DNA of 64,000 nucleotides, taken from Flavobacterium sp. BFFFF2 (GTDB lineage: Bacteria > Bacteroidota > Bacteroidia > Flavobacteriales > Flavobacteriaceae). Positions 3,166-63,236 of this stretch are shown here, in pieces. The stretch covers positions 32,866 to 96,865 of the forward strand of contig NKJD01000006.1 in the NCBI GenBank assembly GCA_002256385.1, in the 5' to 3' direction. The translations under genes and the position numbers were made by a program. Position 1 is the stretch's first letter, and the number at the start of each line of letters is the position of its first letter. Under the pieces are notes generated by a model, which ran no database searches, was not told the origin of the DNA, and worked only from the letters and a program-made list of their open reading frames with translations.

Positions 3166-3331
3166 TAATTGGAATTTTGAATTCTAAATTTTGAATTCTA
3201 AATTTTGGATTTGAAAAATTGGACTCGACAAACTACTCGTTTTTTGATAATTTGACAAATCATTTTTTTTATTTATAAATATTACAAGCATTACATCTTT
3301 ACAAACATTACAACTTTACAAAAACAAGAAT

Positions 3332-8687: not shown

Positions 8688-9626
8688 CTAATTTACCAGT
8701 ACAACCTTCCCCTGTATTCCAACAGAACATTCGTGCGCACTTTGCACCCAGTACTTTTTTTGATTTTCACCAAGCACGCTAAGCAAATAATAGCCACCTC
8801 TAAAAAAAACTTCCTGTATCTGGCAATCGCCTTTTGGTTCTGCTACAAAGATTAATTGATGTGGAAATACATATTGTTCCTTTTCTTGGTCTTGCCAGAC
8901 CGAATATTCCCCAAATAAACCTGCTACATACTCATTCGGTGGGTTTTGGTATAATGGTTTCACGGCATCAAAGGCCAACACTTCGCCATTGTGAAGTACC
9001 ATGACTTGTTCTGCAAAGGAGAGCACATCAGTCATGTCATGGGTGGCAATAAGACAAGTGATTTGTTGCTTTTGTAGGTAGGCAAACAAATTTTGACGCA
9101 ACGCATTTTTCCGAAAACTGTCAATGTGGCTAAAGGGTTCGTCCAACAACAGCACTTCAGGTTCCACCGCCAAGGCACGTGCCAATGCCACGCGTTGCAT
9201 TTGACCCCCACTCAAAAATTGCACTTTGGTTTCGGCCCACTGTGTCATGTCGACCACCTCGAGGAGTTCATCAACTCGGGCTCTTTTGAGCGCGGGATAA
9301 ATATTTGACAAAAATTTACCCACGTTTTCACGTACGGTAATGTAGGGCATCAAATCAAAATCTTGAGCCAAATATTTCATCTGCTCCATGCCAGGAATTA
9401 AATTTTTGGATGGCCCCGTAATTTGGTCTTCGCCCCAATACAAGGCGCCTTGGTTGGCATCAAGCAAGCCGTAAATCAATTTGAGCAGCGTACTTTTCCC
9501 ACAACCACTTTCGCCAATAATAGCAGATACTTGACCTGCTTTAAAAGTGGCCGTCACTTTTGAAATGCTGGGTTTAATGCTTTTCGGATATTGAAACGTA
9601 ACTTGGTTCAGTTGAATTGTTTTCAT
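8688..9626 (-). CDS. ABC transporter ATP-binding protein
   Basis: IGESGCGKSTLL (Walker A), LSGGQMQRVALARALAVEPEVLLLDEPFSHID. Confidence 0.92.
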   Translation of the reverse strand: MKTIQLNQVTFQYPKSIKPSISKVTATFKAGQVSAIIGESGCGKSTLLKLIYGLLDANQGALYWGEDQITGPSKNLIPGMEQMKYLAQDFDLMPYITVRENVGKFLSNIYPALKRARVDELLEVVDMTQWAETKVQFLSGGQMQRVALARALAVEPEVLLLDEPFSHIDSFRKNALRQNLFAYLQKQQITCLIATHDMTDVLSFAEQVMVLHNGEVLAFDAVKPLYQNPPNEYVAGLFGEYSVWQDQEKEQYVFPHQLIFVAEPKGDCQIQEVFFRGGYYLLSVLGENQKKYWVQSAHECSVGIQGKVVLVN

Positions 9627-11133: not shown

Positions 11134-11802
11134 TTAAAATTTGCGTTCATTCCATAAAAACTTCCCTAAATCAATGAGGTGGTTTAATGGGGTGGTATCC
11201 GTGAGTGCAAAGGCAGTTTGCACTGATTTTTCAATAAAGGCGTCTGTCTTTTCAAAGCCAGCCGAGGAATCTTTGCGCCAAAACTGCACAATCATTCCCC
11301 AAAGTACCCAATACGATTCGCGCATGAGTGGGTCGCGGAAACGACTGAGTTGTTCGCTCATTTTTGACGTGGACTGGGCATTCATCGTTGATGTAAATTG
11401 CAAAAACTTTTTTCTAAATTCGGCACTTTCGGCCATCATTTCGGCTGGATTTTTTAAAGAATCAAACATCAAAATCACATAACTGCGGTTTAAAGTAAAC
11501 ACCTCAATCAGTGTAAAATACAAACTAAGCAATTGATTTTGAGCGGTTGCCTCTACAAATTGCGGGTCATTTTCAAGCAATTGTTGCGCCTGTTCAAAAA
11601 ACCGCACCCAAATGGCTTGTCGAATCCCCTTCAGTGATCCGAAAAATTGATAAAATTCAGCTTCTTCCATTTGGCTGTCCTTGCAAAACCGGTACACCGT
11701 GTCGGCAGGTTTATTATGTTCGAGTGCCCATTCCATGTAGGCACTAATTACTGCGTCAGCATCAACGACCTTTGTTTTTTTGGTGGATTTTGTGGTTCCC
11801 AT
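11134..11802 (-). CDS. TetR-like transcriptional regulator, coupled to the UbiB-family gene
   Basis: N-terminal HTH-like region (ADTVYRFCKDSQMEEAEFYQFFGSLKGIRQAIW) and a 3-bp gap to the downstream kinase. Confidence 0.65.
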   Translation of the reverse strand: MGTTKSTKKTKVVDADAVISAYMEWALEHNKPADTVYRFCKDSQMEEAEFYQFFGSLKGIRQAIWVRFFEQAQQLLENDPQFVEATAQNQLLSLYFTLIEVFTLNRSYVILMFDSLKNPAEMMAESAEFRKKFLQFTSTMNAQSTSKMSEQLSRFRDPLMRESYWVLWGMIVQFWRKDSSAGFEKTDAFIEKSVQTAFALTDTTPLNHLIDLGKFLWNERKF

Positions 11803-11884
11803 TTCACTTGAATTTTGAGGTGTAAAGATAGTGTTTTGTTTAACTATTATTTTAAAATGTTAAACAAAAATTTTAGGTTGAAAG

Positions 11885-12290
11885 GCGTAAGTCCAAAGTC
11901 GAAAGTCGAAAGTCAAAAGTCAAAAGTCAAAAGTCGAAAGTCAAAAGTCGAAAGTCAAAAGTCGAAAGTCCAAAGTCCAAAGTCCAAAGTCGAAAGTTGA
12001 CCCGAGACCCATCGGAACGAATGGGGCGAACGGAGCGAAGCTAAAGTCGAAAGTCGAAAGTCAAAAGTCGAAAGCCAAAAATCGAAAGCCAAAAATCGAA
12101 AGCCAAAAGTCAAAAGGCAAAAGTTGAAAGTCGAAAGTCAAAAGTCGAAAGTCGAAAGTTGACCCGAGACCCATCGGAACGAATGGGGCGAACGGAGCGA
12201 AGCTAAAGTCAAAAGTTGAAAGTCAAAAATCGAAAGCCAAAAGTCAAAAGGCAAAAGTTGAAAGTCAAAAATCGAAAGCCAAAAGTTGAT
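11885..12290 (+). repeat. Heptanucleotide repeat array (AAAGTCG/AAAGTCA/AAAGTCC) with two embedded TGACCCGAG...GAACGGAGCGAAGC hairpin elements
   Basis: Direct reading: aaagtcgaaagtcaaaagtcaaaagtcaaaagtcgaaagtc...; embedded elements at ~11998-12042 and ~12160-12204. Confidence 0.95.
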
Positions 12291-12407
12291 TCTCAGATCT
12301 TTTCAATCTTTTTAATCCTTCAATCTTTTAATCCTTCAATCTTTCAATTACAAAGAGAAACTAAAAAAACACTTCATACCTTTGCTCCCAATAAAATTTG
12401 CTTGACT

Positions 12408-13400
12408 ATGTTTCCATTGCAACGTCCCCGCCGTTTACGTACCAACGAAAGCATCCGTGCTTTGGTTCGTGAAACCCTGCTTGTCCCAACCGATTTTATG
12501 TTTCCGATGTTCATTGCAGAAGGCAGTGGGTATCAGTCCGAAATTCCGTCAATGCCTGGCATTTATCGGCGATCGATTGATTTAACGGTGATAGAAATTA
12601 AAGCTTTGTACCAATTGGGCATTCGTGCGGTGAACATTTATGTGAAAGTAAATGAAGGGCTTAAAGACAATACAGGCAAAGAAGCTTGGAACCCCAATGG
12701 GTTGATGCAAAACGCCATTAAGGCCATCAAAGACGCTTGTCCAGAAATGATTGTAATGCCCGATGTGGCGCTAGATCCGTACTCTGTTTTTGGGCACGAT
12801 GGCATCATTGAAAATGGCAAAATTACAAACGATGCCACCAATAGGGCCTTGGTCCAAATGAGTGTGAGCCATGCAGCAGCTGGGGCTGATTTTGTGGCAC
12901 CGTCCGACATGATGGATGGGCGGGTTTTGGCCATTAGGCAAGCATTGGAAGCCGAAGGGTATTCGGATGTGGGCATCATGAGTTATGCCGCCAAATATGC
13001 CTCTGGCTTTTATGGGCCATTCCGTGAAGCCTTAGATAGTGCGCCCGTTGAGGCATCCGATATTCCGCAAGACAAAAAAACCTATCAGATGGATGTGGCC
13101 AACCGCATTGAAGCAGTGCGTGAAGCACTCCTTGATGTGGAGGAGGGCGCCGATATGGTGATGGTTAAGCCAGGCATTGCCTATTTGGATATTGTACGAG
13201 AAGTAAAAAATGCCGTGCATGTACCCGTTTCGGTTTTTCATGTTTCTGGCGAATATGCGATGGTGAAGGCCGCAGCTGAAAAAGGCTGGATTGACCACGA
13301 CCGTGTCATGTTGGAGCAATTGTTGTGTATAAAAAGAGCGGGTGCCAGTTTGATTTCCACTTATTTTGCCAAGGAAGCAGCTATTTTGCTCAATCAATAA
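12408..13400 (+). CDS. hemB: Delta-aminolevulinic acid dehydratase (porphobilinogen synthase)
   Basis: MFPLQRPRRLRTNESIRALVRETLL...DVALDPYSVFGHDGII...VAPSDMMDGRV...MVKPGIAYLDIVR. The 64-aa upstream extension in the ORF track is translated heptad repeat. Confidence 0.95.
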   Translation: MFPLQRPRRLRTNESIRALVRETLLVPTDFMFPMFIAEGSGYQSEIPSMPGIYRRSIDLTVIEIKALYQLGIRAVNIYVKVNEGLKDNTGKEAWNPNGLMQNAIKAIKDACPEMIVMPDVALDPYSVFGHDGIIENGKITNDATNRALVQMSVSHAAAGADFVAPSDMMDGRVLAIRQALEAEGYSDVGIMSYAAKYASGFYGPFREALDSAPVEASDIPQDKKTYQMDVANRIEAVREALLDVEEGADMVMVKPGIAYLDIVREVKNAVHVPVSVFHVSGEYAMVKAAAEKGWIDHDRVMLEQLLCIKRAGASLISTYFAKEAAILLNQ

Positions 13401-13861: not shown

Positions 13862-15301
13862 ATGGTATTAAGTAGATTTTGGTTGACCATTTTTATCGCT
13901 TCACTTTTATTTGTGGGCTATGAAGTGATTTCGGGTAACATTTATTCGGTGGATTCCTTATTAAATGGCAAAAAAGACGACCCTGTTCAATTGTCTGAAC
14001 TGTATTTGGACCACCTGCCCAAAGCCCTACAAGATTCGTTGGTCGTTGCCCCGGAAAAAACGATCACCATTGACCGTGACACCCTGAACCCCGACACGAC
14101 CTATGTGTACGCCAACAAAACCGTTCGGGTTTTTAGCGGCAAACAAAAATCGGATGGTTTATTGCCCACTTGTAAATCGAGTTTGTTTGACCTGATTTTG
14201 CCATTGATGGCCTATTTGGCCTTTTTCTGCGGCTTGATGCAATTGTTGATTCAGTCGGGTGCCGCTGAAAAATTAGCTCGTTGGTTGAGCCCTGTTTTTG
14301 TCCATGTGTTTCCAACAGTTCCCAAAAACCATCCGTCCATTTCGTATATGACTTTGAATTTTGCCGCCAACTTTTTGGGGCTCGATTCTGCTGCTACTCC
14401 TTTTGGGCTCAAAGCGATGGAAAGTTTGCAAACCATTAACCCCGACAAGGAGAAGGCGAGCGATGCCCAAATTATGTTTATGTGTCTGCATGCAGCTGGT
14501 TTGACTTTAATTCCGACCTCCATTATTGGTTATCGAGCTGCCGAAAATGCGCAAAACCCTGCCGATGTCATGTTGCCTTGCATAGTAACTTCGTTTATTG
14601 GGACTCTTGCCGCCTTGCTGATTGTAGGTATTCGGCAACGCATTCGGTTTGGAAGCGCCGTTTTACTATTAAGCATTTTTTCAATTGTTGGACTCATTGC
14701 TGGGCTGTTTTGGTACATTTCGGGCCTCGATTTTATTGAGAAAAATGTGTTCACTTCCAATTTATCAGGCATTTTATTGCTCGGCATTATATTATTGACC
14801 CTTGTTTTTTCATGGAAGCAAGAAAAACGTTTTACCGCCGCCCAAACCACCATTTTTGACAGTTTTGTAGAAGGGGCCCGCGAAGGCTTGCAAACGGGCG
14901 TAAAAATTTTCCCGTATGTATTGGGGATGTTGGTGGCCATCTCATTTTTCAGAAATAGCGGCTTGTTCGAATACATCAGTCAAGGAATTGCCATTGGCTT
15001 TTCGCAAATTGGGGTATCAAAAGAAATCACCGACTCATTGCCCGTGGCCTTGTTGCGCCCGTTCAGTTCCGGCGGATCAAGGGGTTTTATGATTGACGCC
15101 ATGCGCCAATTGGGCCCCGATTCATTGAGCGGCAGGCTCAGTTGCATCTTTCAATGCAGCGCCGAAACCACCTTTTACGTAATAGCAGTGTATTTTGGAT
15201 CGGTTCAAATTAAAAACACCCGTTACACCTTGTCGACCATGCTGTTGGTTGATTTCATCTGTGTGTTGGCGGCCATTGGGGTGGCATGTTGGTTCTTTTA
15301 A
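13862..15301 (+). CDS. Nucleoside recognition (Gate) domain membrane protein, SpmA/SpmB-like fusion
   Basis: FAANFLGLDSAATPFGLKAMESLQ...LRPFSSGGSRGFMIDAM...SCIFQCSAETTFYVIAVYFGSV. Confidence 0.88.
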   Translation: MVLSRFWLTIFIASLLFVGYEVISGNIYSVDSLLNGKKDDPVQLSELYLDHLPKALQDSLVVAPEKTITIDRDTLNPDTTYVYANKTVRVFSGKQKSDGLLPTCKSSLFDLILPLMAYLAFFCGLMQLLIQSGAAEKLARWLSPVFVHVFPTVPKNHPSISYMTLNFAANFLGLDSAATPFGLKAMESLQTINPDKEKASDAQIMFMCLHAAGLTLIPTSIIGYRAAENAQNPADVMLPCIVTSFIGTLAALLIVGIRQRIRFGSAVLLLSIFSIVGLIAGLFWYISGLDFIEKNVFTSNLSGILLLGIILLTLVFSWKQEKRFTAAQTTIFDSFVEGAREGLQTGVKIFPYVLGMLVAISFFRNSGLFEYISQGIAIGFSQIGVSKEITDSLPVALLRPFSSGGSRGFMIDAMRQLGPDSLSGRLSCIFQCSAETTFYVIAVYFGSVQIKNTRYTLSTMLLVDFICVLAAIGVACWFF

Positions 15302-28029: not shown

Positions 28030-28340
28030 TTAAGTTGAAAGTTGAAAGTTGGAAAGTCGAAAGTCCAAAGTTGGAAAGTCGAAAGTCAAAAGTCCAAAGT
28101 CGAAAGTCCAAAGTCGGAACTTGAAACCTGACCCGAGACCCGAAGGGGCGAACGGAGCATATGATATATAGAGGAGGACTGCCAATGGCAGTCAGGTACG
28201 CAAGCTTCAGCTTGACAAAAATTAAACTTGAAACCTGAAACCTGAAACTTGAAACATGAAACATGAAACATGAAACTTGAAACCTGAAACCTGAAACCTG
28301 AAACTTGAACTGAAACTTGAAACCTGAAACTTGAAACAAA
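28030..28340. repeat. Composite intergenic repeat: AAAGTC heptads, TGACCCGAG hairpin element, two-hairpin element, GAAACYT heptads
   Basis: gttgaaagttggaaagtcgaaagtcc...; tgacccgagacccgaaggggcgaacggagc; atatgatatatagaggaggactgccaatggcagtc; aacctgaaacctgaaacttgaaac... Confidence 0.9.
28159..28214 (+). repeat. Two-hairpin element copy R1
   Basis: GAGGAG-GACTGCC-AAT-GGCAGTC-aggtacg-CAAGC-TTCA-GCTTG. Confidence 0.85.
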
Positions 28341-30049: not shown

Positions 30050-30172
30050 TTGAGAGGAAAGTGGAAAGAGGAAAGGGAAAAGATTGAAGGATTTGAGATT
30101 TGAGATTTGAAATTGAAAGATTGAAGGATTGACCCGAGACCCATTAGAACAAATGGGTCGAACATTTGAGAT

Positions 30173-30220
30173 TAAGAGGAGGAAGTCCAGTGGACTTCCG
30201 GAAAGCGAACTTTAGTTCGC
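30173..30220 (+). repeat. Two-hairpin element copy R2
   Basis: GAGGAGGAAGTCC-AGT-GGACTTCCGGAAA-GCGAAC-TTTA-GTTCGC. Confidence 0.9.
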
Positions 30221-30459
30221 AAATCAAAAAAATATCTATTCCGATCAAGCTTTAGCTTGCCTCAACAAACCTGAAACCTGAAACTTGAAACCTGAAACTT
30301 GACCCGAGACCCGAAGGGGCGAACGGAGCGAAGCTAAACCTGAAACCTGAAACTTTAAACCTGACCCGAGGCCAAAGGGCGAACGGTGCGAAGCTAAACC
30401 TGAAACCTGAAACTTTAAACCTGACCCGAGGCCAAAGGGCGAACGGTGCATTTGAAATT

Positions 30460-30508
30460 AAAAGGAGGAAGCCCGGTGGGCTTCAGGTACGCGAGCTTTA
30501 GCTCGCCT
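30460..30508 (+). repeat. Two-hairpin element copy R3
   Basis: AGGAG-GAAGCCC-GGT-GGGCTTC-aggtac-GCGAGC-TTTA-GCTCGC. Confidence 0.9.
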
Positions 30509-30610
30509 TAACAAAACCTGAAACCTGAAACCTGAAACCTGACCCGAGGCCAAAGGCCGAACGGTGCGAAGCAAAACCTGACCCTAGACCGAAGGTCGAA
30601 CTGTATGGAG

Positions 30611-30670
30611 CATATGATATATAGAGGAGGACTGCCAGTGGCAGTCAGGTACACAAGCTTTAGCTTGTGC
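30611..30670 (+). repeat. Two-hairpin element copy R4
   Basis: atatgatatatagaGGAG-GACTGCC-AGT-GGCAGTC-aggtac-ACAAGC-TTTA-GCTTGT. Confidence 0.9.
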
Positions 30671-30723
30671 ATACAAACAGATAAGACTTTTTGATTAAGC
30701 CCAGTTGGCTTCAGATTTGATAT

Positions 30724-30772
30724 TAAGAGGAGGAAGTCCAGTGGACTTCCGGAAAGCGAACTTCAGTTCGCA
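30724..30772 (+). repeat. Two-hairpin element copy R5
   Basis: GAGGAGGAAGTCC-AGT-GGACTTCCGGAAA-GCGAAC-TTCA-GTTCGC. Confidence 0.9.
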
Positions 30773-30873
30773 AATCAAAAAACAATTAATCCGATCGAGC
30801 TTTAGCTCGCCAATTTTTTCAACCTTAAACAAAAGACTTTTAACTTTCGACTTTTGACTTTCGACTAAAATAA

Positions 30874-36324: not shown

Positions 36325-36517
36325 TTTGAGTCGAAAGTCAAAAGTCAAAAGTCGAAAGTCTTTGAAACTCTTCGAAACTCTTCAATCAAATAGAGGCAAT
36401 AGGCAATAGCCACAAGGCAATAGTTTTTTTGTTTGAAGTTATTTTTATCACTCAATTTTATATCTCAAATCTTTCAATCTTTAAATCCTTCAATCTTTAA
36501 ATCACTAAATTTGCTCC

Positions 36518-37800: not shown

Positions 37801-38000
37801 TAAAAAAGCGTCAAAAGCTTGCTTTTGTAAGCGTTTAAAAAACAAAAGCAACAAACCCCCTTGGGGTTTTGTTGCTTTTTGCATGTTCAGAATGGAGCTG
37901 TATAGGATCACGCAAGCGAAGCGCCGCGTAATCCTATTCGTTTTCACTATTGTTCCTTAGTGTATTAGTGAAAAGCTTGCTTTTGTAAGTGGCTAAAAAA

Positions 38001-38375
38001 TATATGATATATAGAGGAGGAAGTCCAGTGGACTTCCGGAAAGCGAACTTTAGTTCGCAAAAAACCCAAGGGGTTTTGTTGCTTTTAGCATATTCAGAAT
38101 ATATGATATATAGAGGAGGAAGTCCAGTGGGCTTCCGGAAAGCGAACTTTAGTTCGCAAAAACCCAAGGGGTTTTGTTGCTTTTAGCATGTTCAGAATAT
38201 ATGATATATAGAGGAGGACTGCCAGTGGCAGTCAGGTACGCAAGCTTTAGCTTGCCAACTAAAACCTTGATGCCCGTTTGAAATGCAGGTACACAAGCTT
38301 TAGCTTGTGCAAACAAACAGATAAGACTTTCTAATTAAGCCCAGTGGGCTTCAGTTACGCGAACTTTAGCTTGCT
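38001..38375 (+). repeat. Three tandem ~98-99-bp units (two-hairpin element + AACCCAAGGGGTTTTGTTGCTTTT) followed by partial copies
   Basis: tatatgatatatagaggagg starts at 38001, 38100 and 38198. Partial element copies at ~38285-38310 and ~38336-38375. Confidence 0.92.
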
Positions 38376-39176: not shown

Positions 39177-39632
39177 TGATGATATAATTTTCCCACCCAA
39201 CCACCTGAAAACCAATAAAAAAAAGCAGTTTTGATTGTTATCACTTGTCTTTTCGAGCATTGACAAGCTCATAAACACCATGAAATTAGGGATTTAGAAT
39301 ACCCTGCGGGAACTAGGTGCCTGGTTTTAATAGGTGCTGTTCGTAAAAAAACTTTAAACTTTAAACTTTTCAACTTTAAACTAAAATCGCGTGAGGGATG
39401 GCAGTGGCATCCTCCGCCTTGGCGGAGATATAACGGACAGCCCGACCCGTTCCTGAACTAAACCTTCTGTTATTGGAAAAAGTAGTGGAACGGGGCACGC
39501 CCAAAGCTGAGTTGGAAAGTTGAATGTTGCAAGTTGGAAAGTTGCTCTCCTGCTTAAACTTCTTCATTTTCTTGCACAAAGAAATCTGAAAACTTCTTAG
39601 ATTTATGTTCTGAAAATTGGATTTGGCTTTGA
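39177..39632 (+). repeat. Long structured repeat, copy A
   Basis: From gtgatgataattttcccacccaaccacctgaaaacc-like start to ctgaaaattggatttggctttg; near-identical to copy B. Confidence 0.9.
39388..39502 (+). ncRNA. Putative structured RNA core, copy A
   Basis: CGCGTGAGGGATGGCAGTGGCATCC-TCCGCCTTGGCGGA-GATATAACGGACAGCCCGACCCGTTCC...GGAACGGGGCACGCCC; nested complementary stems. Confidence 0.5.
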
Positions 39633-40473: not shown

Positions 40474-40918
40474 CAACCCAACCACCTGAAAACCAACAAA
40501 AAATTGAATCAGTGACGCGTGTTGTCACTTGTCTTTTCGAGCATTGACAAGCTCATAAACACCATGAAATTAGGGATTTAGAATACCCTGCGGGAACTAA
40601 GTGCCTGGTTTTAATAGGTGCTGTTCGTAAAAAAACTTTAAACTTTAAACTTTTCAACTTTAAACTAAAATCGCGTGAGGGATGGCAGTGGCATCCTTTT
40701 GCTTTAGCAAAAGATATAACGGACAGCCCGACCCGTTCCTGAACTGAGTTTTCTTTTATTGGAAAAAGTAGTGGAACGGGGCACGCCCAAAGCTGAGTTG
40801 GAAAGTTGAATGTTGCAAGTTGGAAAGTTGCTCTCCTGCTTAAACTTCTTCATTTTCTTGCACAAAGAAATCTGAAAACTTCTTAGATTTATGTTCTGAA
40901 AATTGGATTTGGCTTTGG
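40474..40918 (+). repeat. Long structured repeat, copy B
   Basis: Same order and near-identical sequence to copy A; core 40672-40788 with the CTTTTGC-TTTA-GCAAAAG hairpin variant. Confidence 0.9.
40672..40788 (+). ncRNA. Putative structured RNA core, copy B
   Basis: CGCGTGAGGGATGGCAGTGGCATC-CTTTTGCTTTAGCAAAAG-ATATAACGGACAGCCCGACCCGTTCC...GGAACGGGGCACGCCC. Confidence 0.5.
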
Positions 40919-41436: not shown

Positions 41437-41815
41437 GTGATGATGTAATTCTACCCACCCAACCACCTGAAAACCAATAAAAAAAGTAGTTACGAATGTT
41501 ATCACTTCTCTTTTCTGGCGTTGATCTGCTCTTAAATGCAATGAAATATTGGCTTTAAACCAGCTTTCGGGAATAGAACACCTTGCTTTAGAAGCAGGTA
41601 TTCGAAAAAAAACTTTCAACATTCAACATTACAAACTTGAAACAAAATCCCGCGTGAGGGATGGCAGTGGCATCCTTTTGCTTTAGCAAAAGATATAACG
41701 GACAGCCCGACCCGTTCCTGAACTGAGTTTTCTTTTATTGGAAAAAGTAGTGGAACGGGGCACGCCCAAAACTAAGTTGAAAGTTGTAATGTCAAAAGTT
41801 GTAAAGTTGCGCGCT
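41437..41815 (+). repeat. Long structured repeat, copy C (diverged)
   Basis: gatgatgtaattctacccacccaaccacctgaaaaccaat...CGCGTGAGGGATGGCAGTGGCATCC...GGAACGGGGCACGCCC. Confidence 0.88.
41651..41767 (+). ncRNA. Putative structured RNA core, copy C
   Basis: Same stems as copy B. Upstream hairpin GAAT...ACCTTGCTT-tag-AAGCAGGT-ATTC differs from copies A and B but remains paired. Confidence 0.5.
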
Positions 41816-47140: not shown

Positions 47141-47229
47141 GGCGTGCCCCGCCTGCCTAAGGCGAGGCGGGTCGGGCTGTCCGTTATATCTCCGCCAAGG
47201 CGGAGGATGCCACTGCCATCCCTCACGCG
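47141..47229 (-). ncRNA. Putative structured RNA core, copy D
   Basis: The terminal stem is changed to CCCGCCT...AGGCGGG (CCGTTCC...GGAACGG in copies A-C) and stays complementary. Confidence 0.5.
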
Positions 47230-47505
47230 GGATTTTTGTTTCAGGTTTTCCTTCGGACCGTTCGCCCCTGAGGGTCTCGGGTCAAGTTTAGCTTCGCTCC
47301 GTTCGGCCTTTGGCCTCGGGTCAGGTTTCAGGTTTGTTTTTTAAGAACACTACCAACTTAAACCAGACACCTAGTTCCGCGGGGCGGCTCGCACAATCTA
47401 ATTTCATAGCGTGTACGAGCAGATCAAAACTAAAAAAGACAAGTAATAGCACTGGTCTATTATTGTGAAATTTATTTTTTACTGATTTTCAACTGGTTAA
47501 CTTTT
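47141..47505 (-). repeat. Long structured repeat, copy D (inverted orientation), carrying inserted TGACCCGAG hairpin elements
   Basis: Minus strand: aaccagttgaaaatcagtaaaaaa...CTTGTCTTTT...GAACTAGGTGTCTGGTTTAAG...CGTGAGGGATGGCAGTGGCATCC...CCCGCCTCGCCTTAGGCAGGCGGGGCACGCCC. Confidence 0.85.
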
Positions 47506-48662: not shown

Positions 48663-48732
48663 TCAATTCTTAAACCTTAAACCTTAAACCTTAAACCTTA
48701 AACTTTAAACTTTCGACTTTCGACTTTCCAAC
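48663..48732. repeat. Heptad array (TTAAACC / TTAAACT / TTTCGAC)
   Basis: taaaccttaaaccttaaaccttaaaccttaaactttaaactttcgactttcgactttcc. Confidence 0.9.
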
Positions 48733-48787
48733 TGAACCCCGACTGGCATCAAAAAATAGCTTAAATTTGCCAATCATATTTCCAAAA

Positions 48788-53347: not shown

Positions 53348-56300
53348 TTAGCGTTTGATTACACGCACTACGCGGTTTTCATCGGCTTGTTGAATAAATA
53401 CATTGTAAACACCCGCTGGCAATTCAGCACCAAAATTGGTTTGTGCTAAATCGGCTGGGTTGTACGAACCTTGAACTACTACTTTGCCTAACATATCGTA
53501 AACCAAGATAGAAACTGGCTCTGCTGATGGCGTGTCAAGTGCCAAAGTAAAGCTACCTTCAAATGGGTTTGGATAAGCATAAGCGGAGAAGTCGTTGTTG
53601 TAAACTACTTGTTGTTTGTGTGAACCAGTTGTTACCGTACATGGCGTGCCATAAGTTCCAGTTCCTGAGCTAAATATAGGCGCAACTTGTATGGTGTAAG
53701 TAGTTCCTGCAGAAGCACCGCCTGGCAACAACATCAAGTTGAAGTTGTTGGTTGAACGGGTAATGGTTGCAGAATTTGAAACACCCCAAGTTACCAAGAA
53801 ACTATAACCGGTTGCACCAGCTATTTGTCCACTGTACAAAGTAGTCCAGAATGATGACAATGAAACCCCACACTGACTTGGGTTAAGTGCAGTGGTTGGT
53901 GTTGCTTGCGCTGGCGTAGTAAAGGTACAAGCTGCACCATACGATTGTAAAGTCCCATTGTAAACTACGGCTACACGCACACTGTAAGTGGTGTTGTAAG
54001 CAGCACCACCTGAAAGTTGCATCAAGTTAAACGCGTTAGTTGACGCATCAAAAGTGCGGACATTGCTACCAACAGTTACTTCAAATCGGTATCCGCTGAT
54101 GTAATTTAACGAACCTGCGTAAATAGTGGTGTACAATGACGCAAGCGTTGAACCACAAGTTGGAGCTGCAATGGCTGTAACCGGTGCTGGAGTTGTTACC
54201 ACACATGCAGAACCAAATCCAGTCCAAGAACCATTTGCAAATGCATTTACCCGAACAGAATAAGATGTGCTATAAGCAGCTCCACTTGTTAATTGGGTTA
54301 AATTAAATGCACTGGTTGAACTTGTAACCGAAGAAGTTGCGTTTGTTGTATTGTTGGTTACTTCAAACTCATAACTAGTAGCTGTATCAACAGCAGTACA
54401 ATATAAACTGGTTTCAATACTTGCTAAAGTAGTTCCACACACAGAAGTAAGTAAACTAGTAGTAGGTATTTGACGAATGGTAACGGTACAACTAGCACCA
54501 TACTGATAAACTACGCCACTATAAATAGGCGCAACACGCACAGCATAAGCGGTACCATACGAAGCACCACCGCCATTTAAGTTTGACAAACTAAATGAGT
54601 TACTAGAAGAATCGTACGTACGAACGGTTGAACCGTTTGTTACTTGGAAACGATAGCCAGAAGCACCTGTAACAGGATTAGCAAACAATGGCGATGAAGG
54701 TTGTAAAATGGTTGCACCACAATAAGATGACTGAAGTGAGGTGGTTGGTGATGTTACGGTACAAGTGTTGCCATAATAACCTTGCCAAACACCTTGGAAT
54801 TTAATAGCTACGCGAACTGTGTAAAGCGCTGCAAATTTAACCCCAGAAATATACGACAGGTTGAAATAGTTGGTAGTACTATCGTAAGTAGCCGTAGTTG
54901 TTCCATCAGACACTTCAAAACGATATGCTTGCGCTACTGAAACAGCATCAGCATAAATTGGTGTAGTTAAAGAAGAAACAGTAGTACCACATTGGGCTGT
55001 TTGAACTTGTGTAGAACAAACCTCATCAATGCGACCATCGCAGTTGTCATCGATACCATTACCACAAATTTCAGTGGCACCAGGGTAAACAGCACTTCTT
55101 GTATCGTCACAATCGGTGTTATTGGCTACATAGCCCGATGGCGTTCCAAAACAAGAAACTTGCGTGGTTGTAGCGTCACCATACGTATCAAAATCATTGT
55201 CTCTGTAGTACGTTACATTGGCGTTAACACCAACATAAGAAGAACCTGAAAGTCCACCAGTAGCCACTGCCAAACCGTAAGCATCTGTCACCGATGACAA
55301 AGTATAAGTAGTGGAGGTAGTTGGAGAAACAGCAAAAGGATACGTGCTCGTATAATTAGTAACTGGCGCTATAGTTGTAGTGCCGTTTGATAATACTACG
55401 GTATATGGAGCCGTTCCACCTGTAATATTCACCGCAAGGTTCGTTGATGATCCATTACAAATGGTGTTAGTACCACTTAATGCTGCAGCAGTTGGCGCGG
55501 TAACTACCAAGCCATAAATAGTGAAATCGTCTAAACGGAAAGTACCCGTTGCAGAGGCAGTACCTCCAGCTAAGTCGGCACGTTGTGTACCATAAGGATA
55601 TACTCTAAAAGTAACGGTTCCAGCAATTGGGGTTGTAAAATCGGTAAAATCCCAGTTTGCAACTGCCAATGTAGTGGTTGTTAATGGCGCAGCACCCCAC
55701 GATGTAGATGTTGCGAAGTTGTCAGTGCTGTAACGTACTTCTACTTGGTTTGGCGCTGTGTTACTTCCACTGCGACCAAAAGAAATAGATGAAATACGCA
55801 TCGCATAACCAGCAGCAGCAGCAGCTGAAAACTCAATGTATGACGTATTGCTCACAGTACCGGTGTTGTTTAATGTGGTTGAATTCATTAAATTGGCAGT
55901 AGTTGAGCAAGTGATGGTGCTTCTAGAAGCAGCAGCTCCCGTTACATTGGTTGCGGCAACGGGTGTGTTTCCTTGCGTTGGGCATGCCGCAGTACCAGTA
56001 AATTGGTTCAAGTACAAAGCTCTTGCAACGGTTAATACTTGTGTGGCAGAAGTGAAAGAGTAATTTTGACTTTCCGCTTGAACAGCTGTAATGGTTGTAG
56101 TTCCGATACCTTCAATATGAATTAATCCACCAGTAGCAATAGAAGCAACGCTTGTATCTGAACTGGTAAAATAGATCGCATTAGTAGCCGAAGTGGCTGA
56201 GGTTGCAGTTGGTGCAAAATCAGGATCTAATAAGGTTTTTGTAGTAAAGGCTGTAAAACTGATAGTCTGTGATGCCTTTACAATGTCACCTGTAATGGTT

Positions 56301-59300
56301 GGCTGTTGCAAAGTATATTTACCTGCATTGGCCCCACCTAAAGTAAATGAAGTTGTAATGGCAATGCCAGTTGCAGCATTGACATCATTGTAAATACCAC
56401 CTCCTGAAAGAGTCACTACATCTGAACCAACAATTCCTGACAAAGAAGCTCCAGTAATGTTAGCAATATTGGTACCGTCATATGCTTTGATCGCAACTGT
56501 AGCACCTGTAACTGTCAATTGTTTTTTGTTTACAGTTAAGATCTGAGTCACGTTAGCAGCTGGATTGTATTGTGCATTTCCAGATTGGAAAGAGGTAATG
56601 GTAGAAGTACCAGGACCAACAATCGTTACAGTGTTTCCGTTGATTGTAGCCACCGAAGTGTTTGAGCTGATGTAAGAAATAGCCAAACCTGAAGTAGAAG
56701 TAGCTCCTAAGTTAAAAGTGTCATCACCATAACTCACAGCCGACAATGCATCAAAAGTAATGGTTTGGTCTGTTTTCGAACTATCAATTACGTTTAACGG
56801 TTGCGTAACATCAGAAGCAGCAAAATAATTGTCATTACCCGCTTGTGAAGCAGTAATTACAGTAGTTCCAGTACCAACTAAGGTAACAGTTGAGCCAACA
56901 ATAGTAGCCACATCCGTATTTGAACTGGTATAAGTAATGGTGTTAACTGCAGAAGTAGCAGAAGTAGCTGCTAAATTGAAAGTAGTTACTTGGCTAATGT
57001 CTTTGGTTGAAATAGTACCGAAAGTAATAGACTGATTCGCTTTAGCAATTGAAATAGCTAATGTTTTTGTACTATCGCTTCCAGCTGAATTTGAAGATGT
57101 AAGTGTCACATTAAAATCGCCCGCTACTGTTGGCGTACCTGAAATAACACCAGTCGTGGCGTTAATGGTTAAACCTGCTGGTAAGCCTGTTGCACCGAAG
57201 ATATCTGGGGCATTATCTGCAGTAACCGTATATGAAGTAAAAGATGCATCAACAGTGCCGGTTGCAGTAAGCGTTGAATTGGTTACCACTGGTGCAATCA
57301 ATTTTGGTGCAAATGCCAAACCTCTGTAAACACTTCCTGAAGCTACCGTTTTCAGAGTTGAAATGGTACCTGTCATGGTCGCATTGTAAGCGGCTGTGTC
57401 TGTTAATTTGATAATCGTAGTTGAAGTGGTAGCATATACATCTACATTGCTGCCATTTACTTGTGCTACAATACCAATAATTCCAGCTGTATGTGTTACA
57501 GAACCACGAGCTGTCCAAGTATCTCCACCGTCGGTTGAAGAAAATTTATAAATACCGGCATTTGTTCCGTATGCTACATAACAGTTCCAATTTGAACCAC
57601 CTCTATTTACCATATAAAACCCGTAAGGATCTGGCGATGGCGTGGTACCTGTCATGGCAGCAGTTGACGAAGAAACAGTGCTTGTTGGCAAACTTGTACC
57701 AGGTATCCGGTAAATACCAGTTGGACTAGACCCTGTACCATAGTACAATTTATTATTATAGATACCTACTGATCTTAAGTTAGTTGTACCTGTAAAAGCA
57801 AAAGCTGGTGTTACAGCAGTCGTATTACCCGCATGTTGAATATACCCGACACCACTTGTACTTCCAGAAGTATAATAGGCTTTTCCATTGGCCGTCGCAA
57901 CTGAACGTAGCACAGTATGTGTCGCTGAACTAAATGAAGTAGTAGCTACATTTCCTTTGTAATCGACACGGGCAATAACACGGTTACCACCAGCAGTTCC
58001 GCCAGCAGCTACATCGTATCCACCAAAGGTCAAATACTGTCCATCAGCAGAAAGCAACAATTGGCCTTCTGTAGCAGAACCGCCACTGATCGTAACACGG
58101 TTGATGTTTCCTGAGGTAGTAACTGGCAATGTATAAGTAGTTCCAGTTGCGCCAGAAGTTGAATATTCATCAAAGCTAATAGCTGCCGTAGTTGTCGAGG
58201 TTGAAGCTACACGAGCAACCACCAAACGACCGTCAGTGTAAGGAGCAGCAGTTACCGTTAAAGTTTGATTAACAGAAGTAGCTGCATTATAATTGGTGTC
58301 ACCAGCCTGCGAAGCTGTGATGGTAGAAGTACCAGCCCCAACAATCGTAATGTTTGAACCTGAAACGGTTGCAACGGCAGTATTTGAGCTCACATAAGTA
58401 ACTGTTAAACCAGAAGAAGCAGTAGCACCTGGGTTAAAGGCTGCATCCGAAGTATTTTTGGAAGCTATAGCATTAAAAGTAATTGTTTGATTTCCTTTAG
58501 TAACTGTACCAGTTAAAGCTGTTGGTTGTAAAACAGCATAGTTCGTTGCATCAGCACCAGCTATATCATAGCCACTCACAGTTACCGCTTTATCAGTTCC
58601 TACAGCAGCCGTAGTAAAGACCGCAACAGGTGTACCAGCGACAGTTACTGTATCACCAGAAACAATGCCATTTAAAACAGCCGTACCTTGAATGGTAGCT
58701 GCGGTAGTTCCGTCATAGCTTTTAGAAGCAATACTAATACCGCTAATCGTTAAAGGAGCTGCAGTAATAGATCCAGTAACTGTTGGCAATGAACTGTTAT
58801 TAATTGAATAGTTTCCAGCATCGGCACCACTTAAGCTTAATGAGTAAGAAACAGCTAAACTACTTCCGACTGCTGTTTGAGAGAAAGTTCCTGACCCAGA
58901 AACTGTTACTACATCAGGAGAAATAACACCAGTAAGTGACGTACCTGTAATAGTAACGTTTGCATTTCCGTCATACACTTTAGTAGCGGTCATTGAAGAG
59001 GGCGTAAGTGTCTTTTTGTTGATCAATGCACTTAAACCAGTTGGTTGTGTTGTGAAAGAATAGTTAGCTGCTTTTGTCCCTGTAAGGCTAATTGAAGCAG
59101 TTACGCCGATAGCACTCGTTGAAGCATTTACACTAGCAAAAGAACCAGAACCTACAAATGACACATCGTCTGAACCAACCACACCAGTTAATGTACCAGT
59201 AATGGTTGCGGCGTTTGTGCGGTCATATTCTTTAGCTTGTGCAGTTGCCCCATTTAACGTAAGTGATTTTGCATTTACCGTTAAATTCTGAGTAACATTC

Positions 59301-61384
59301 ACGGCTGCATTGTAAGTAAATGGGTCAGCTACACCACCCGCTTGTGAAGCGGTAATGGTGGTGCTTCCAGCGCCTACGATCGTTACGGTGTTTCCACTAA
59401 TGGTCGCTACCGCTGTATTTGAACTGTTGTAAGAAACAGTTAAACCAGAAGAAGCAGTTGCTGTTAAATTAAATGAACTGTCACCATAAGTAACGGCTGA
59501 CAAAGAACCAAAAGTAATCGTTTGGCTAACTGCCGCAGGTGAATTGATATTTGCTGTTAAACCAGTTGGCTGCGTCAAAGAATAGTTCCCTGCATCAGCA
59601 CCACCTAAAGTAGCGGTTGAAGTGATCGCTACATTGTTAGCTACTGCCTCACTAGCAAAAGTACCTGTTCCATTTAAAGTAACTACATCTGGCGAAATAA
59701 TCCCCGATAAAGTACCTGTAAATGTAGCATCGGTAGTGCCGTCATATGTTTTGTCAACGCCGGCCGCACCTGTTACGGTTAAAGCTTTGGCGGTAATGTT
59801 GGCAGATAAACCTGTAGGCTGCGTTAATGAGTAGTTACCTAAATCGGCACCACCTAAAGTAGCAGTAGAAGTAATTCCAATTCCGTTGGCTACATTGGCA
59901 GAAGCAAAAGTACCTGTTGCACTTAAAGTAACTACGTCAGGCGAAATAATACCTGATAAAGAACCTGTAAAAGTGGCAGCATTGTTGCGGTTGTACACTT
60001 TATTTACGCCTGCTGGGCTAGAAACAGTTAAAGCTTTTTGTGAAATATTGGCACTTAAACCAGCTGGCTGAGCCGATAAGGTATAGTTAGCGGCATTAGC
60101 TCCGCCTAGGGCAAAACCTGTAGCGGTAACAGCAATGCCATTGGCAACGCCCGTACTTGCAAAAGTAGCAGTACCAGCAGTAACGGTTACTACATCACTT
60201 CCAACTACGCCAGAAACAGCAGCAGATCCTGTGTTTAAGGATGCAGTGTTAGTACGATCATATATTTTATTACTAGCAGTTACGCCGGTAATTGTTACTG
60301 ATTTTGCAGAAACAGTATTTCCTGTTGAAGGAGTGGTGATTGTTTTATCTGTACCACTAGTTGTTGAAAAAGTAATGGCTTTTGAATTGTATGAACCTGG
60401 TGTGGCTGAAGCCGCCAAACGCGCATAAAAATTACTTGAACTTAGCGTACCAGAAGTTGGTGCGTACGATAACGTAGTACTAAAAGTTGAATTGTCTTTA
60501 GAGAATTCAAAACCAGCCAAAGCACCAACGGTTACGTTAGCTGATAAATTCGTGCCAGATACCGTAAATGATTGTGAAGTAGAAGCCGTACCATAAGTAG
60601 TGGTTAAAGCAGTAGTTGCAGTAGCACTCAAAGTAATGGTCGGTACAGAAGCTGAGGCAGTCACACTAGCCCAAGTTGTACCAATGCGGATGGCATCAAG
60701 GGTACCAACTGGTGTTGAAGATCCTTGACGGATTGTAACCCCTGTAATTGAAGTTGGATCTGTTCCGGTAGTAGGTGCAGATAAAGTGGCAGAACCAGGT
60801 TCAGAACCACCTAATGCAGGCTCAATGAATAAACCAACAGTATCATTGGTTGTCCCCGCAACAATAGTATATTTAATAACAATTAAATAAGTAGTACCAA
60901 AAGCACGAGCAGTCCCTTCATAACTAGGTGATGTACCAGATTTCTCAATACCTAGCATATAACCTGTCCCACTTGACTTGGCATACAAACGAGAGGAGAA
61001 TGTGGTTGTACCTCCAGATAATGTGAAGAAATAATCACCAGTTCCAGCTGATGTAATGTTGATAAGTGCAGACATATATACAGTGCCCGAAGTCACCGCC
61101 GTAAATGTCTTTTGGTTGTCATCGCCAGTGGTGGAAATACCCACTGCTTTTCCGACACCAGAACCTGGGTGGCCGGTGTAGGTTAAACCTGAACTGGATA
61201 CTGTCAAGTTGTTGGTACCTGTACCACTGACAGAGGTCCAACCATTGACTGCAAGCGTCTGGCCGCTAGTGTAGCTAAAATCTTCGGTCAATGGCAGCGC
61301 CTGCGCAGATCCCGAAAAAGTAGCCAACAAAAAAATCGCTAAGATTCCCAGAAGGCTCTTCACGAAATGTAGTTGTGTTTTCAT
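53348..61384 (-). CDS. Giant (2678 aa) secreted repeat protein: YDG repeats, Ig-like (ATISGNTVTIVGAG..) repeats, MopE-like motif, T9SS type A sorting domain
   Basis: At least seven YDx[TN]-type repeats (e.g. GAAGVDKTYDGTTDATFTGTLSGIISPDVVTL); YYRDNDFDTYGDATTTQVSCFGTPSGYVANNTDCDDTRSAVYPGATEICGNGIDDNCDGRIDE; C-terminal YPNPFEGSF...VVRVIKR. Confidence 0.92.
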   Translation of the reverse strand: MKTQLHFVKSLLGILAIFLLATFSGSAQALPLTEDFSYTSGQTLAVNGWTSVSGTGTNNLTVSSSGLTYTGHPGSGVGKAVGISTTGDDNQKTFTAVTSGTVYMSALINITSAGTGDYFFTLSGGTTTFSSRLYAKSSGTGYMLGIEKSGTSPSYEGTARAFGTTYLIVIKYTIVAGTTNDTVGLFIEPALGGSEPGSATLSAPTTGTDPTSITGVTIRQGSSTPVGTLDAIRIGTTWASVTASASVPTITLSATATTALTTTYGTASTSQSFTVSGTNLSANVTVGALAGFEFSKDNSTFSTTLSYAPTSGTLSSSNFYARLAASATPGSYNSKAITFSTTSGTDKTITTPSTGNTVSAKSVTITGVTASNKIYDRTNTASLNTGSAAVSGVVGSDVVTVTAGTATFASTGVANGIAVTATGFALGGANAANYTLSAQPAGLSANISQKALTVSSPAGVNKVYNRNNAATFTGSLSGIISPDVVTLSATGTFASANVANGIGITSTATLGGADLGNYSLTQPTGLSANITAKALTVTGAAGVDKTYDGTTDATFTGTLSGIISPDVVTLNGTGTFASEAVANNVAITSTATLGGADAGNYSLTQPTGLTANINSPAAVSQTITFGSLSAVTYGDSSFNLTATASSGLTVSYNSSNTAVATISGNTVTIVGAGSTTITASQAGGVADPFTYNAAVNVTQNLTVNAKSLTLNGATAQAKEYDRTNAATITGTLTGVVGSDDVSFVGSGSFASVNASTSAIGVTASISLTGTKAANYSFTTQPTGLSALINKKTLTPSSMTATKVYDGNANVTITGTSLTGVISPDVVTVSGSGTFSQTAVGSSLAVSYSLSLSGADAGNYSINNSSLPTVTGSITAAPLTISGISIASKSYDGTTAATIQGTAVLNGIVSGDTVTVAGTPVAVFTTAAVGTDKAVTVSGYDIAGADATNYAVLQPTALTGTVTKGNQTITFNAIASKNTSDAAFNPGATASSGLTVTYVSSNTAVATVSGSNITIVGAGTSTITASQAGDTNYNAATSVNQTLTVTAAPYTDGRLVVARVASTSTTTAAISFDEYSTSGATGTTYTLPVTTSGNINRVTISGGSATEGQLLLSADGQYLTFGGYDVAAGGTAGGNRVIARVDYKGNVATTSFSSATHTVLRSVATANGKAYYTSGSTSGVGYIQHAGNTTAVTPAFAFTGTTNLRSVGIYNNKLYYGTGSSPTGIYRIPGTSLPTSTVSSSTAAMTGTTPSPDPYGFYMVNRGGSNWNCYVAYGTNAGIYKFSSTDGGDTWTARGSVTHTAGIIGIVAQVNGSNVDVYATTSTTIIKLTDTAAYNATMTGTISTLKTVASGSVYRGLAFAPKLIAPVVTNSTLTATGTVDASFTSYTVTADNAPDIFGATGLPAGLTINATTGVISGTPTVAGDFNVTLTSSNSAGSDSTKTLAISIAKANQSITFGTISTKDISQVTTFNLAATSATSAVNTITYTSSNTDVATIVGSTVTLVGTGTTVITASQAGNDNYFAASDVTQPLNVIDSSKTDQTITFDALSAVSYGDDTFNLGATSTSGLAISYISSNTSVATINGNTVTIVGPGTSTITSFQSGNAQYNPAANVTQILTVNKKQLTVTGATVAIKAYDGTNIANITGASLSGIVGSDVVTLSGGGIYNDVNAATGIAITTSFTLGGANAGKYTLQQPTITGDIVKASQTISFTAFTTKTLLDPDFAPTATSATSATNAIYFTSSDTSVASIATGGLIHIEGIGTTTITAVQAESQNYSFTSATQVLTVARALYLNQFTGTAACPTQGNTPVAATNVTGAAASRSTITCSTTANLMNSTTLNNTGTVSNTSYIEFSAAAAAGYAMRISSISFGRSGSNTAPNQVEVRYSTDNFATSTSWGAAPLTTTTLAVANWDFTDFTTPIAGTVTFRVYPYGTQRADLAGGTASATGTFRLDDFTIYGLVVTAPTAAALSGTNTICNGSSTNLAVNITGGTAPYTVVLSNGTTTIAPVTNYTSTYPFAVSPTTSTTYTLSSVTDAYGLAVATGGLSGSSYVGVNANVTYYRDNDFDTYGDATTTQVSCFGTPSGYVANNTDCDDTRSAVYPGATEICGNGIDDNCDGRIDEVCSTQVQTAQCGTTVSSLTTPIYADAVSVAQAYRFEVSDGTTTATYDSTTNYFNLSYISGVKFAALYTVRVAIKFQGVWQGYYGNTCTVTSPTTSLQSSYCGATILQPSSPLFANPVTGASGYRFQVTNGSTVRTYDSSSNSFSLSNLNGGGASYGTAYAVRVAPIYSGVVYQYGASCTVTIRQIPTTSLLTSVCGTTLASIETSLYCTAVDTATSYEFEVTNNTTNATSSVTSSTSAFNLTQLTSGAAYSTSYSVRVNAFANGSWTGFGSACVVTTPAPVTAIAAPTCGSTLASLYTTIYAGSLNYISGYRFEVTVGSNVRTFDASTNAFNLMQLSGGAAYNTTYSVRVAVVYNGTLQSYGAACTFTTPAQATPTTALNPSQCGVSLSSFWTTLYSGQIAGATGYSFLVTWGVSNSATITRSTNNFNLMLLPGGASAGTTYTIQVAPIFSSGTGTYGTPCTVTTGSHKQQVVYNNDFSAYAYPNPFEGSFTLALDTPSAEPVSILVYDMLGKVVVQGSYNPADLAQTNFGAELPAGVYNVFIQQADENRVVRVIKR

Positions 61385-62069: not shown

Positions 62070-62130
62070 ATTAGTTGAATGTTGGAATGTTGAATGTTGG
62101 AATGTTGAATGTTGAATGTTGGAATGTTGA
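62070..62130. repeat. Heptad/octad array (GTTGAAT / GTTGGAAT)
   Basis: gttgaatgttggaatgttgaatgttggaatgttgaatgttgaatgttggaatgttga. Confidence 0.92.
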
Positions 62131-62149: not shown

Positions 62150-63060
62150 AAAGTCATTTTTCTTTTCTCTTTCTTCTTTTCTCTTTCCTCTGAACTTGGG
62201 CCAGCAAAGAAAATGAACAAAATGCCCTATCAATAGAAATACGTCTGGCAGAAAACAATAGGCCGTATGAATAGAATTCTAAAATATTCAATCAATGTGT
62301 AATGTTCTGCGAAGCTTAGCAGGTGCCGGCCCGCATTTATCGAAGTGCCCTATACTTTCTGCTATTGGTTGTAAAATGGGCTATTGCCCCAAGTCATTTC
62401 TATAATTCTGATAAATGCAGGAAAGTATAGGCCACTTCGTTGTCATAGGTTTTCAAGCCGGCAAAATTTCTGAAACCTATGATATATAGAGGAGGACTTC
62501 CAGTGGAAGTCCGGGACTATACTTCTTTTAAAATGCATAGTTGAAATTTTAGAAAGTAGTTTTTAGTAAAAGGGATTTTCGGCTTGAAAGGAAAGAACAA
62601 AGATATCTTTTCTCTTTCTTCTTTCCTCTTTCTTCTGAACTTGGGCCAGCAATGAAAATGAACAATGTTGTTTCAACAGAAATACGCCTGGCAGAAACCA
62701 ATAGGTCTTATGAATAGAATTCTAAAATATTCAATCAATGTTAAGTTTTGTGCGAAGTCACGTAAGTGCCGGCCCGCATATGTAGTCATAGGTTTCGCTA
62801 GCCGCATAAAATCCTGAAGCCTTGGAGGGATTTTCGGCCAAGCGAAACTGGTTTTGCCGCAGGCAAAAATGACCTTTTATGCGGGCCAAAAGGGCCCTTT
62901 CTTTTGGTTCGTTTTCTTTGGGCCAGCAAAGAAAATGAACAAAATCGTGAATCAACAGCAATAGGTCATGTAGAAACCAAAACATCTTATGAAAAGCATT
63001 ATAAAAACAATGAACCAATTGTTCTAGGCAACAGCGGGCAAAAACGTATTTGCGACCTCT
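62150..63060. repeat. Three diverged copies of a ~180-bp repeat
   Basis: ctctttc...gaacttgggccagcaaagaaaatgaacaaa...tctggcagaaa.caatagg..tatgaatagaattctaaaatattcaatcaatg at ~62157-62340 and ~62600-62780; third, more diverged, at ~62890-63040. Confidence 0.85.
62478..62514 (+). repeat. Two-hairpin element copy R11 (first hairpin only)
   Basis: tatgatatatagaGGAGGACTTCC-AGT-GGAAGTCCggg. Confidence 0.85.
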
Positions 63061-63118: not shown

Positions 63119-63236
63119 CAATTTAAAAGATGTTATTGAAATGGAGCTTTGTCAAAATGTTGAACCTTGACAAGGTACTTAAAATGCAACATTACAAACA
63201 TGTCACATTACAAACATTCCAACATATTAAAAAAAA

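Follow-up and report, generated by a model that had tools for sequence, protein, structure and literature searches.

Introduction

One survey ranked heptanucleotides as the most abundant long simple sequence repeats (LSSRs) in the majority of genomes, with a proposed explanation in slippage tied to a 7-nt polymerase contact (Mrazek et al. 2007, as cited in PMC4679880 and PMC4692102). That bacteria carry too many 7-bp repeats has been on record since 2007 without a tested cause, and the question 'why 7?' is a long-standing one. Several heptads may occur in one genome: three different ones are known in Calothrix (PMC4692102), and, reported incidentally, mixed heptamer assemblages in Elizabethkingia and other heptamers beside TAACTGA in Gramella forsetii and a second member of the Bacteroidetes, A. 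sublithincola (PMC4679880). A first-pass annotation of a 64,000-nucleotide stretch of Flavobacterium sp. BFFFF2 DNA (the window; contig NKJD01000006.1, positions 32,866 to 96,865) had taken its multi-consensus heptad arrays for a form not previously described, a view that the Calothrix, Gramella and Elizabethkingia reports leave only partly right. The source genome is a 3.72-Mb draft, 98% complete. It falls into one genus with hundreds of other genomes, and both the neighbouring genes and the Rfam Flavo-1 hits agree with Flavobacterium.

Results

Heptad arrays in the window

All arrays listed in the first-pass annotation were recovered by Tandem Repeats Finder, at the same positions or a few bases off, although the list, while real, was incomplete, having missed arrays at 3172-3212, 28032-28126, 30835-30866, 36329-36360, 39349-39382, 40633-40666 and 62161-62191. 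Of the listed arrays, the one at 63188-63222 was recovered weakly (67% matches). The region upstream of hemB, read initially as one continuous array at 11885-12290, does consist of heptads (7-bp arrays at 11880-12159 and 12205-12286), but these form three blocks parted by two identical 43-bp repeats, termed S below. When up to one mismatch was allowed, AAAGTCRAAAGTCR gave 42 matches against 0.16 expected. The features of the window are as follows.

3172-3212 (+), 14/7-bp array (AATTTTGAATTCTA) in a codirectional gene junction (Tandem Repeats Finder)
3272-3322 (+), 8/9-bp array (ATTACAAC), sharing a junction with the 3172-3212 array (Tandem Repeats Finder)
11134-11802 (-), TetR-family regulator gene (Pfam TetR_C_23)
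11880-11999 (+), heptad block 1, (AAAGTC[GAC])17, between the divergent TetR-type and hemB genes
12000-12042 (+), S repeat, 43 bp, hairpin-bearing, lineage-specific, between heptad units
12043-12161 (+), heptad block 2, 17 units
12162-12204 (+), S repeat, second copy, identical to the first
12205-12289 (+), heptad block 3, 12 units, with an internal 42-bp duplication
12301-12348 (+), period-8 array (TTTCAATC) (Tandem Repeats Finder)
12377-12384 (+), TACCTTTG, probable hemB promoter, fitting the Bacteroidota -7 consensus
12408-13400 (+), hemB, delta-aminolevulinic acid dehydratase (Pfam ALAD)
28032-28126 (+), AAAGTTG array passing into AAAGTCG, ending in AAACCTG and an S-plus-hairpin element (from 28131)
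28224-28337 (+), AAACCTG/AAACTTG array with 14-bp alternation (Tandem Repeats Finder)
30267-30542 (+), AAACCTG/AAACTTG arrays broken by S repeats and a hairpin element (Tandem Repeats Finder)
36329-36360 (+), AGTCAAA array, immediately past a stop codon
36467-36503 (+), period-8/16 array, immediately before a gene for an L-PSP (RidA-type) protein
48669-48733 (+), CTTAAAC array running in phase into CTTTCGA (Tandem Repeats Finder part, 48669-48710)
62074-62130 (+), GTTGAAT / GTTGGAAT array, 7/8 bp, immediately past a stop codon

The -7 promoter consensus of Bacteroidota is TAnnTTTG, and the predicted hemB promoter TACCTTTG lies downstream of the hemB-upstream arrays. The arrays at 30267-30542 comprise sub-arrays at 30267-30302, 30336-30364, 30396-30424 and 30514-30542, with S copies at 30302-30335, 30364-30395 and from 30424, and a further S copy follows directly at 30542-30573. 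The junction holding the 3172-3212 and 3272-3322 arrays is only 7 bp long in the relative G069. On the minus strand, 53348-61384 is occupied by a 2678-aa open reading frame with internal 249-bp repeats, perhaps encoding a large secreted or surface protein.

A step between 6 and 7 bp in the period spectrum

Tandem repeats were counted in 1.52 of the 3.72 Mb, the contigs being partly picked for holding arrays. A genome-wide tandem-repeat check had been proposed with the first-pass annotation, and enrichment at periods 7 and 8 was indeed found beyond the window in the 1.52 Mb sampled. In intergenic DNA the autocorrelation peaked at lags 7, 14, 21 and 28 and had a shoulder at 8. The coding DNA of the same sample gave no lag-7 series, only the codon period. 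Tandem Repeats Finder identified 158 intergenic arrays of period 7, against 9 in coding DNA, together with 43 intergenic arrays of period 8 and 1, 0, 3 and 3 at periods 5, 6, 9 and 10, respectively. There were 28 distinct period-7 consensuses, among them AAAGTCG (36), AAACTTT (21), AAACCTG (19) and AAAATTC (10). Exact intergenic repeats of at least three copies, counted in 1.5 Mb, numbered 78 at period 7 (approximately 0 expected) and 18 at period 8, with 2, 0, 1 and 0 at periods 5, 6, 9 and 10; in these exact counts of intergenic DNA, units of 6 bp or less showed no excess over chance. Expressed per chance two-copy seed, arrays of at least three copies amounted to 0.008, 0.007 and 0 at periods 4, 5 and 6, 2.7 at period 7 and 2.25 at period 8. 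The rise between 6 and 7 bp is abrupt and independent of the unit. Chance as the explanation of the arrays was rejected on the exact-repeat counts and the 42 matches to AAAGTCRAAAGTCR.

Exact counts in 58 stretches of other Flavobacterium gave 8 repeats at period 7 and 4 at period 8 versus 0 and 1 at periods 5 and 6, and per-seed growth was 0.3-0.5 at 7-8 bp, the same spectrum in a weaker form. The repeat length, not the sequence, seems to be the conserved property. As the source genome is a draft in 118 contigs, the arrays might be artefacts of assembly; this was rejected as highly improbable because the same spectrum holds in the other-species samples, which are mostly closed genomes, and one array is present at the orthologous place in several independent assemblies.

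Gain and loss of arrays between species

Presence variation was compared between species, each represented by one genome, with spacer lengths at the L139 and L177 junctions and variation at L172 taken from alignment coordinates plus AAAGTCR pattern matches. The L139 gene pair of F. zhairuonense is separated by a 95-bp spacer containing (AAAGTCR)6 and an ATAATTC run, whilst the same genes lie 3-10 bp apart in 15 other species (7 bp in the closest, at 86% identity) and 363-649 bp apart in three. At L177 the spacer measures 126 bp in F. denitrificans and approximately 97-118 bp in five other species, in three of which (G099, G120 and G068) AAAGTCR matches fall exactly in the spacer; it measures 14-42 bp in 16 species and 274-489 bp in three. 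The tight form predominates among informative species at both junctions. Judged from these sequence comparisons, the arrays at L139 and L177 are species-level gains or losses, the direction depending on a species tree. The whole match length at the L172 junction varies by up to approximately 60 bp between species. A further 66 conserved codirectional junctions have a tight form in one species and a long form elsewhere, and their pooled long spacers have excess identity at lags 7, 8 and 14. For the window junction at 3166-3331 (166 bp), rough estimates from alignment coordinates in 131 genomes gave mostly shorter spacers elsewhere; the neighbour genes of hemB differ between species. Taken together, the comparisons suggest that heptad growth is one source of new intergenic DNA.

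Internal structure and placement of arrays

Variation within the arrays of this genome was concentrated by position, as in AAAGT[C/T][G/A/C/T] and AAAC[C/T]T[G/T]. Purine/pyrimidine class was block-structured along arrays (lag-1 z of 3-8.7 at variable positions), and the most variable transition sites had little, zero or negative lag-1 correlation with an excess at lag 2 (14 bp; z up to 4), a pattern of transition mixing and transversion blocks that has exceptions. This structure fits one- and two-unit duplication, with misalignment still possible across transition differences, and faster transition mutation may contribute to it. No word of at least seven units was shared between any of the 51 AAAGTC loci of this genome, so the arrays look locally made, and copying from locus to locus was rejected on the same ground.

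Arrays were equally frequent beside stops and starts, the main predictor being spacer length, and divergent, convergent and codirectional spacers were used without preference and with no strand bias; an orientation-linked function was rejected accordingly. In the orthologous L177 array the AAAGTC core is kept in F. denitrificans, G099, G120 and G068, with the seventh base reading GAGAGAGA, AAGAGAAAA, AAAAAAA and GGAAAGG in the four species. Such intact core bases across approximately 15% gene divergence, and the position-specific conservation within units, would be expected if arrays were spacing-dependent elements under selection, whether protein-binding or regulatory at the RNA level. That reading, which the first-pass annotation had raised, is nevertheless improbable, given that no spacer orientation is preferred, as a promoter or terminator role would lead one to expect, that 15-16 related species lack the array at the orthologous junction, that the predicted hemB promoter is downstream of the array and that units at one junction differ between species. 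Analysis of orientation, strand and promoter position gave no evidence in the sequence for a regulatory role.

Inverted heptad arms capable of forming hairpins were enriched in the gained spacers of relatives (4 of 9 heptad spacers with a score of at least 14, versus 2% of cross-pairs). They were not enriched in the genome of the window (7% versus 21% of cross-pairs) and are thus not a general explanation. Gained spacers taking the form of hairpins with heptad-periodic arms were observed at L083 (16589-16663 and 17228-17320), L081 (approximately 8960-9040), L090 (approximately 14830-14908) and L317 (approximately 11860-11938); the arms in other Flavobacterium include TTTCAGG.../...CCTGAAA and GTTGATG.../...CATCAAC, and in some of these hairpins the variant units on both arms follow the same, not the inverted, order. 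A palindrome, AACCATTAAGAAATTAAG ... CTTAATTTCTTAATGGTT, recurs in the L076, L085, L091 and L093 junctions of several Flavobacterium species, and a second, ACCATATAAGTTATATAAG ... CTTATATAACTTATATGGT, in L081, L083, L090 and L303.

The S repeat and other hairpin elements

The S repeat gave 103 strict matches in this genome and 0 in 120 congeners; AAAGTYR heptads are present in 31 of 121 genomes. Complete S copies are followed by AA in 41/41 cases and preceded by G in 39/41. The units flanking S agree at 6.17/7 positions versus 4.89 in shuffles (z 8.3), approximately as ordinary adjacent units do. The matching flanks and the single phase indicate that S occupies heptads that already existed and is not their source, and S appears to be a lineage-specific insert, lying mostly inside heptads at a fixed heptad phase. 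A 7-bp target duplication was not seen, since the flanking 7-mers are no more alike than ordinary neighbours, and the birth of arrays as target-site duplications of S was rejected for that reason. A search of this genome (98% complete) for a Y1 (RAYT-type) transposase, PF01797, gave no match, with positive controls.

Dispersal of the arrays along with S, as mobile or gene-converted modules, would accord with the abundance of S here and its absence from congeners, with the like units on both its sides and with two loci that each carry S copies 162 bp apart. It is nonetheless improbable, as heptads are present in species without S, AAAGTC loci share no words of at least seven units and their shared 6-unit words are no commoner within the genome than against other taxa, and neither the identity across S nor the transposase search points to transposition.

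Other hairpin elements were observed in the window. A repeated element, made up of ATATGATATATAGAGGAGG and, after it, two hairpins with variable stems in which pairing is kept (AAGTCCAGTGGACTT, AAGCCCAGTGGGCTT and CTGCCAGTGGCAG), occurs at 28159-28215, 30166-30220, 30460-30510, 30617-30670, 30720-30775 and 37999-38218; it gave 42 matches in a simple search of 1.5 Mb and is often joined directly to S. Four copies of Rfam Flavo-1 are located at 39381-39451, 40665-40737, 41643-41716 and 47166-47237, and at least the first two have AAACTTT-type heptads on the 5' side and AAGTTG-type heptads on the 3' side, forming roughly complementary arms.

Heptad arrays in cyanobacteria and other phyla

AAAGTCR arrays were found in many Flavobacterium among the named records, in many cyanobacterial records and in distant phyla too. 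Loci from other phyla were picked for their AAAGTCR arrays, which were masked before counting; absolute densities are biased by this selection, the comparison between periods not obviously so. With AAAGTCR masked, the cyanobacterial loci held 27-28 arrays at period 7, built from many units, but no arrays at periods 5, 6, 8 or 9; equal per-seed growth would predict approximately 19 at period 8. The lack of arrays at period 8 makes the step in these loci look fixed rather than a minimum. A strict period of 7 in cyanobacterial loci, combined with the same units in distant phyla, is beyond what slippage with a minimum step explains alone. One speculative reading, which we consider rather unlikely, is that an activity blind to sequence, whose step is fixed at 7 nt and which is common to Bacteroidota and Cyanobacteria, continually writes heptads into junctions and is a main source of their new intergenic DNA.

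The strict period with many units, the identical units in distant taxa and the near-random state of the most variable transition positions between adjacent units could also reflect a dedicated or unusual enzyme, be it template-carrying, reverse transcriptase-like or an alternative polymerase or primase, writing fixed 7-nt steps into junctions. This genome has a single gene with a reverse transcriptase domain (G000:C59:48907-49518, a 349-aa open frame). Such an enzyme is unlikely in view of the many unit families, a per-seed yield of period 8 nearly that of 7 in this genome, the 14-bp lag structure and transversion blocks, which point to duplication of existing units, and the lack of any template RNA or enzyme linked to the arrays.

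Discussion

A constant period with changing sequence had been taken in the first-pass annotation as the sign of a common generating mechanism, and this is strongly supported because the exact counts rise abruptly at 7 bp regardless of unit, and do so too in loci of cyanobacteria and others whose units differ. Of the mechanisms it had named, slippage fits once a minimum step is added, and templated copying, though conceivable, is not needed to explain the arrays. On balance we lean towards the view that the arrays are heptanucleotide LSSRs produced by slippage-type growth, with a minimum step of approximately 7 bp set by the replication machinery, into which the lineage-specific S repeat was inserted.

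Under slippage with such a minimum step, arrays would be made repeatedly and independently in intergenic DNA, each from a chance tandem pair of 7, 8 or 14 bp in a gene junction that acts as a seed. During replication the growing strand would re-anneal one or two units back, and extension would succeed only where at least approximately 7 bp of duplex separate the primer end from the looped-out unit. The polymerase would grip approximately that length of duplex, so that units of 6 bp or less would fail to grow, and 7 would have an advantage over longer units, whose chance seeds are approximately 3 times rarer with each added base. Repeated events would extend an array by single units or by unit pairs (14 bp). 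Transition variants (C/T, A/G) would mix freely since the misaligned duplex can still pair there by G.T wobble, and transversions would act as barriers and stay in blocks. The 7-bp threshold, the gain and loss of the arrays between species as near-neutral filler and the spread of the S hairpin repeat in this lineage, mostly within heptads and in one phase, are borne out by the counts and comparisons; chance seeding, the polymerase footprint as cause and the wobble argument are inferred. The recurrence of AAAGTCR in distant phyla and the uneven conservation within units (AAAC[CT]T[GT]) speak against slippage that is wholly sequence-blind.

The 7-bp effect can be given as a clean number, with no growth at 6 bp or less and strong growth at 7-8 bp for any sequence. 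This clean threshold, together with named junctions that carry either an array or nearly nothing, makes the mechanism behind 'why 7?' testable.

The S repeat and the adjacent AGGAGG double-hairpin elements resemble REP/BIME-type repeats in being short, repeated, intergenic and palindromic, but no Y1 (RAYT) transposase was found here and S is mostly limited to heptad junctions. The TAACTGA repeats of Beggiatoaceae, Cyanobacteria and some Bacteroidetes (MacGregor 2015, PMC4679880) are likewise tandem intergenic heptamers in overlapping phyla, with other heptamers alongside in Gramella and Elizabethkingia and with shorter, repeat-free intergenic regions in relatives. Here the units differ, TAACTGA being absent from the 28 period-7 units of this genome, and in place of forward-oriented clusters a few nucleotides upstream of starts the arrays lie near stops and starts alike. 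The STRR of Calothrix and the GGGNATC and GGGGA(T/C)T heptads of Xanthomonas and Nostoc also have heterogeneous units, and their length varies between close relatives at one gene pair (PMC4692102), as it does here. The Xanthomonas and Nostoc units are of G-quadruplex type (PMC4692102), whereas those described here are AT-rich, and period 8 also occurs in this genome. The STRR comparison is based on AAAGTCR, present in many cyanobacterial records, not on the original STRR units.

In the part of the literature searched, no precedent was found for the 6-to-7 step measured against chance seeds, the transition/transversion blocks, the two junction polymorphisms or the heptad-linked S. The closest likeness is to the heptanucleotide LSSRs of Mrazek et al. 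(2007), which, as far as they are represented in later citations, share over-represented 7-bp units and an intergenic location with these arrays. Compared with that representation, the present data add a 6-to-7 step measured against chance seeds, the coexistence of many units in one genome and species-level gain or loss at named junctions. With 7-bp units above chance, an intergenic location and presence variation between species, the arrays are of the heptanucleotide LSSR kind, a variant of it and not a separate class.
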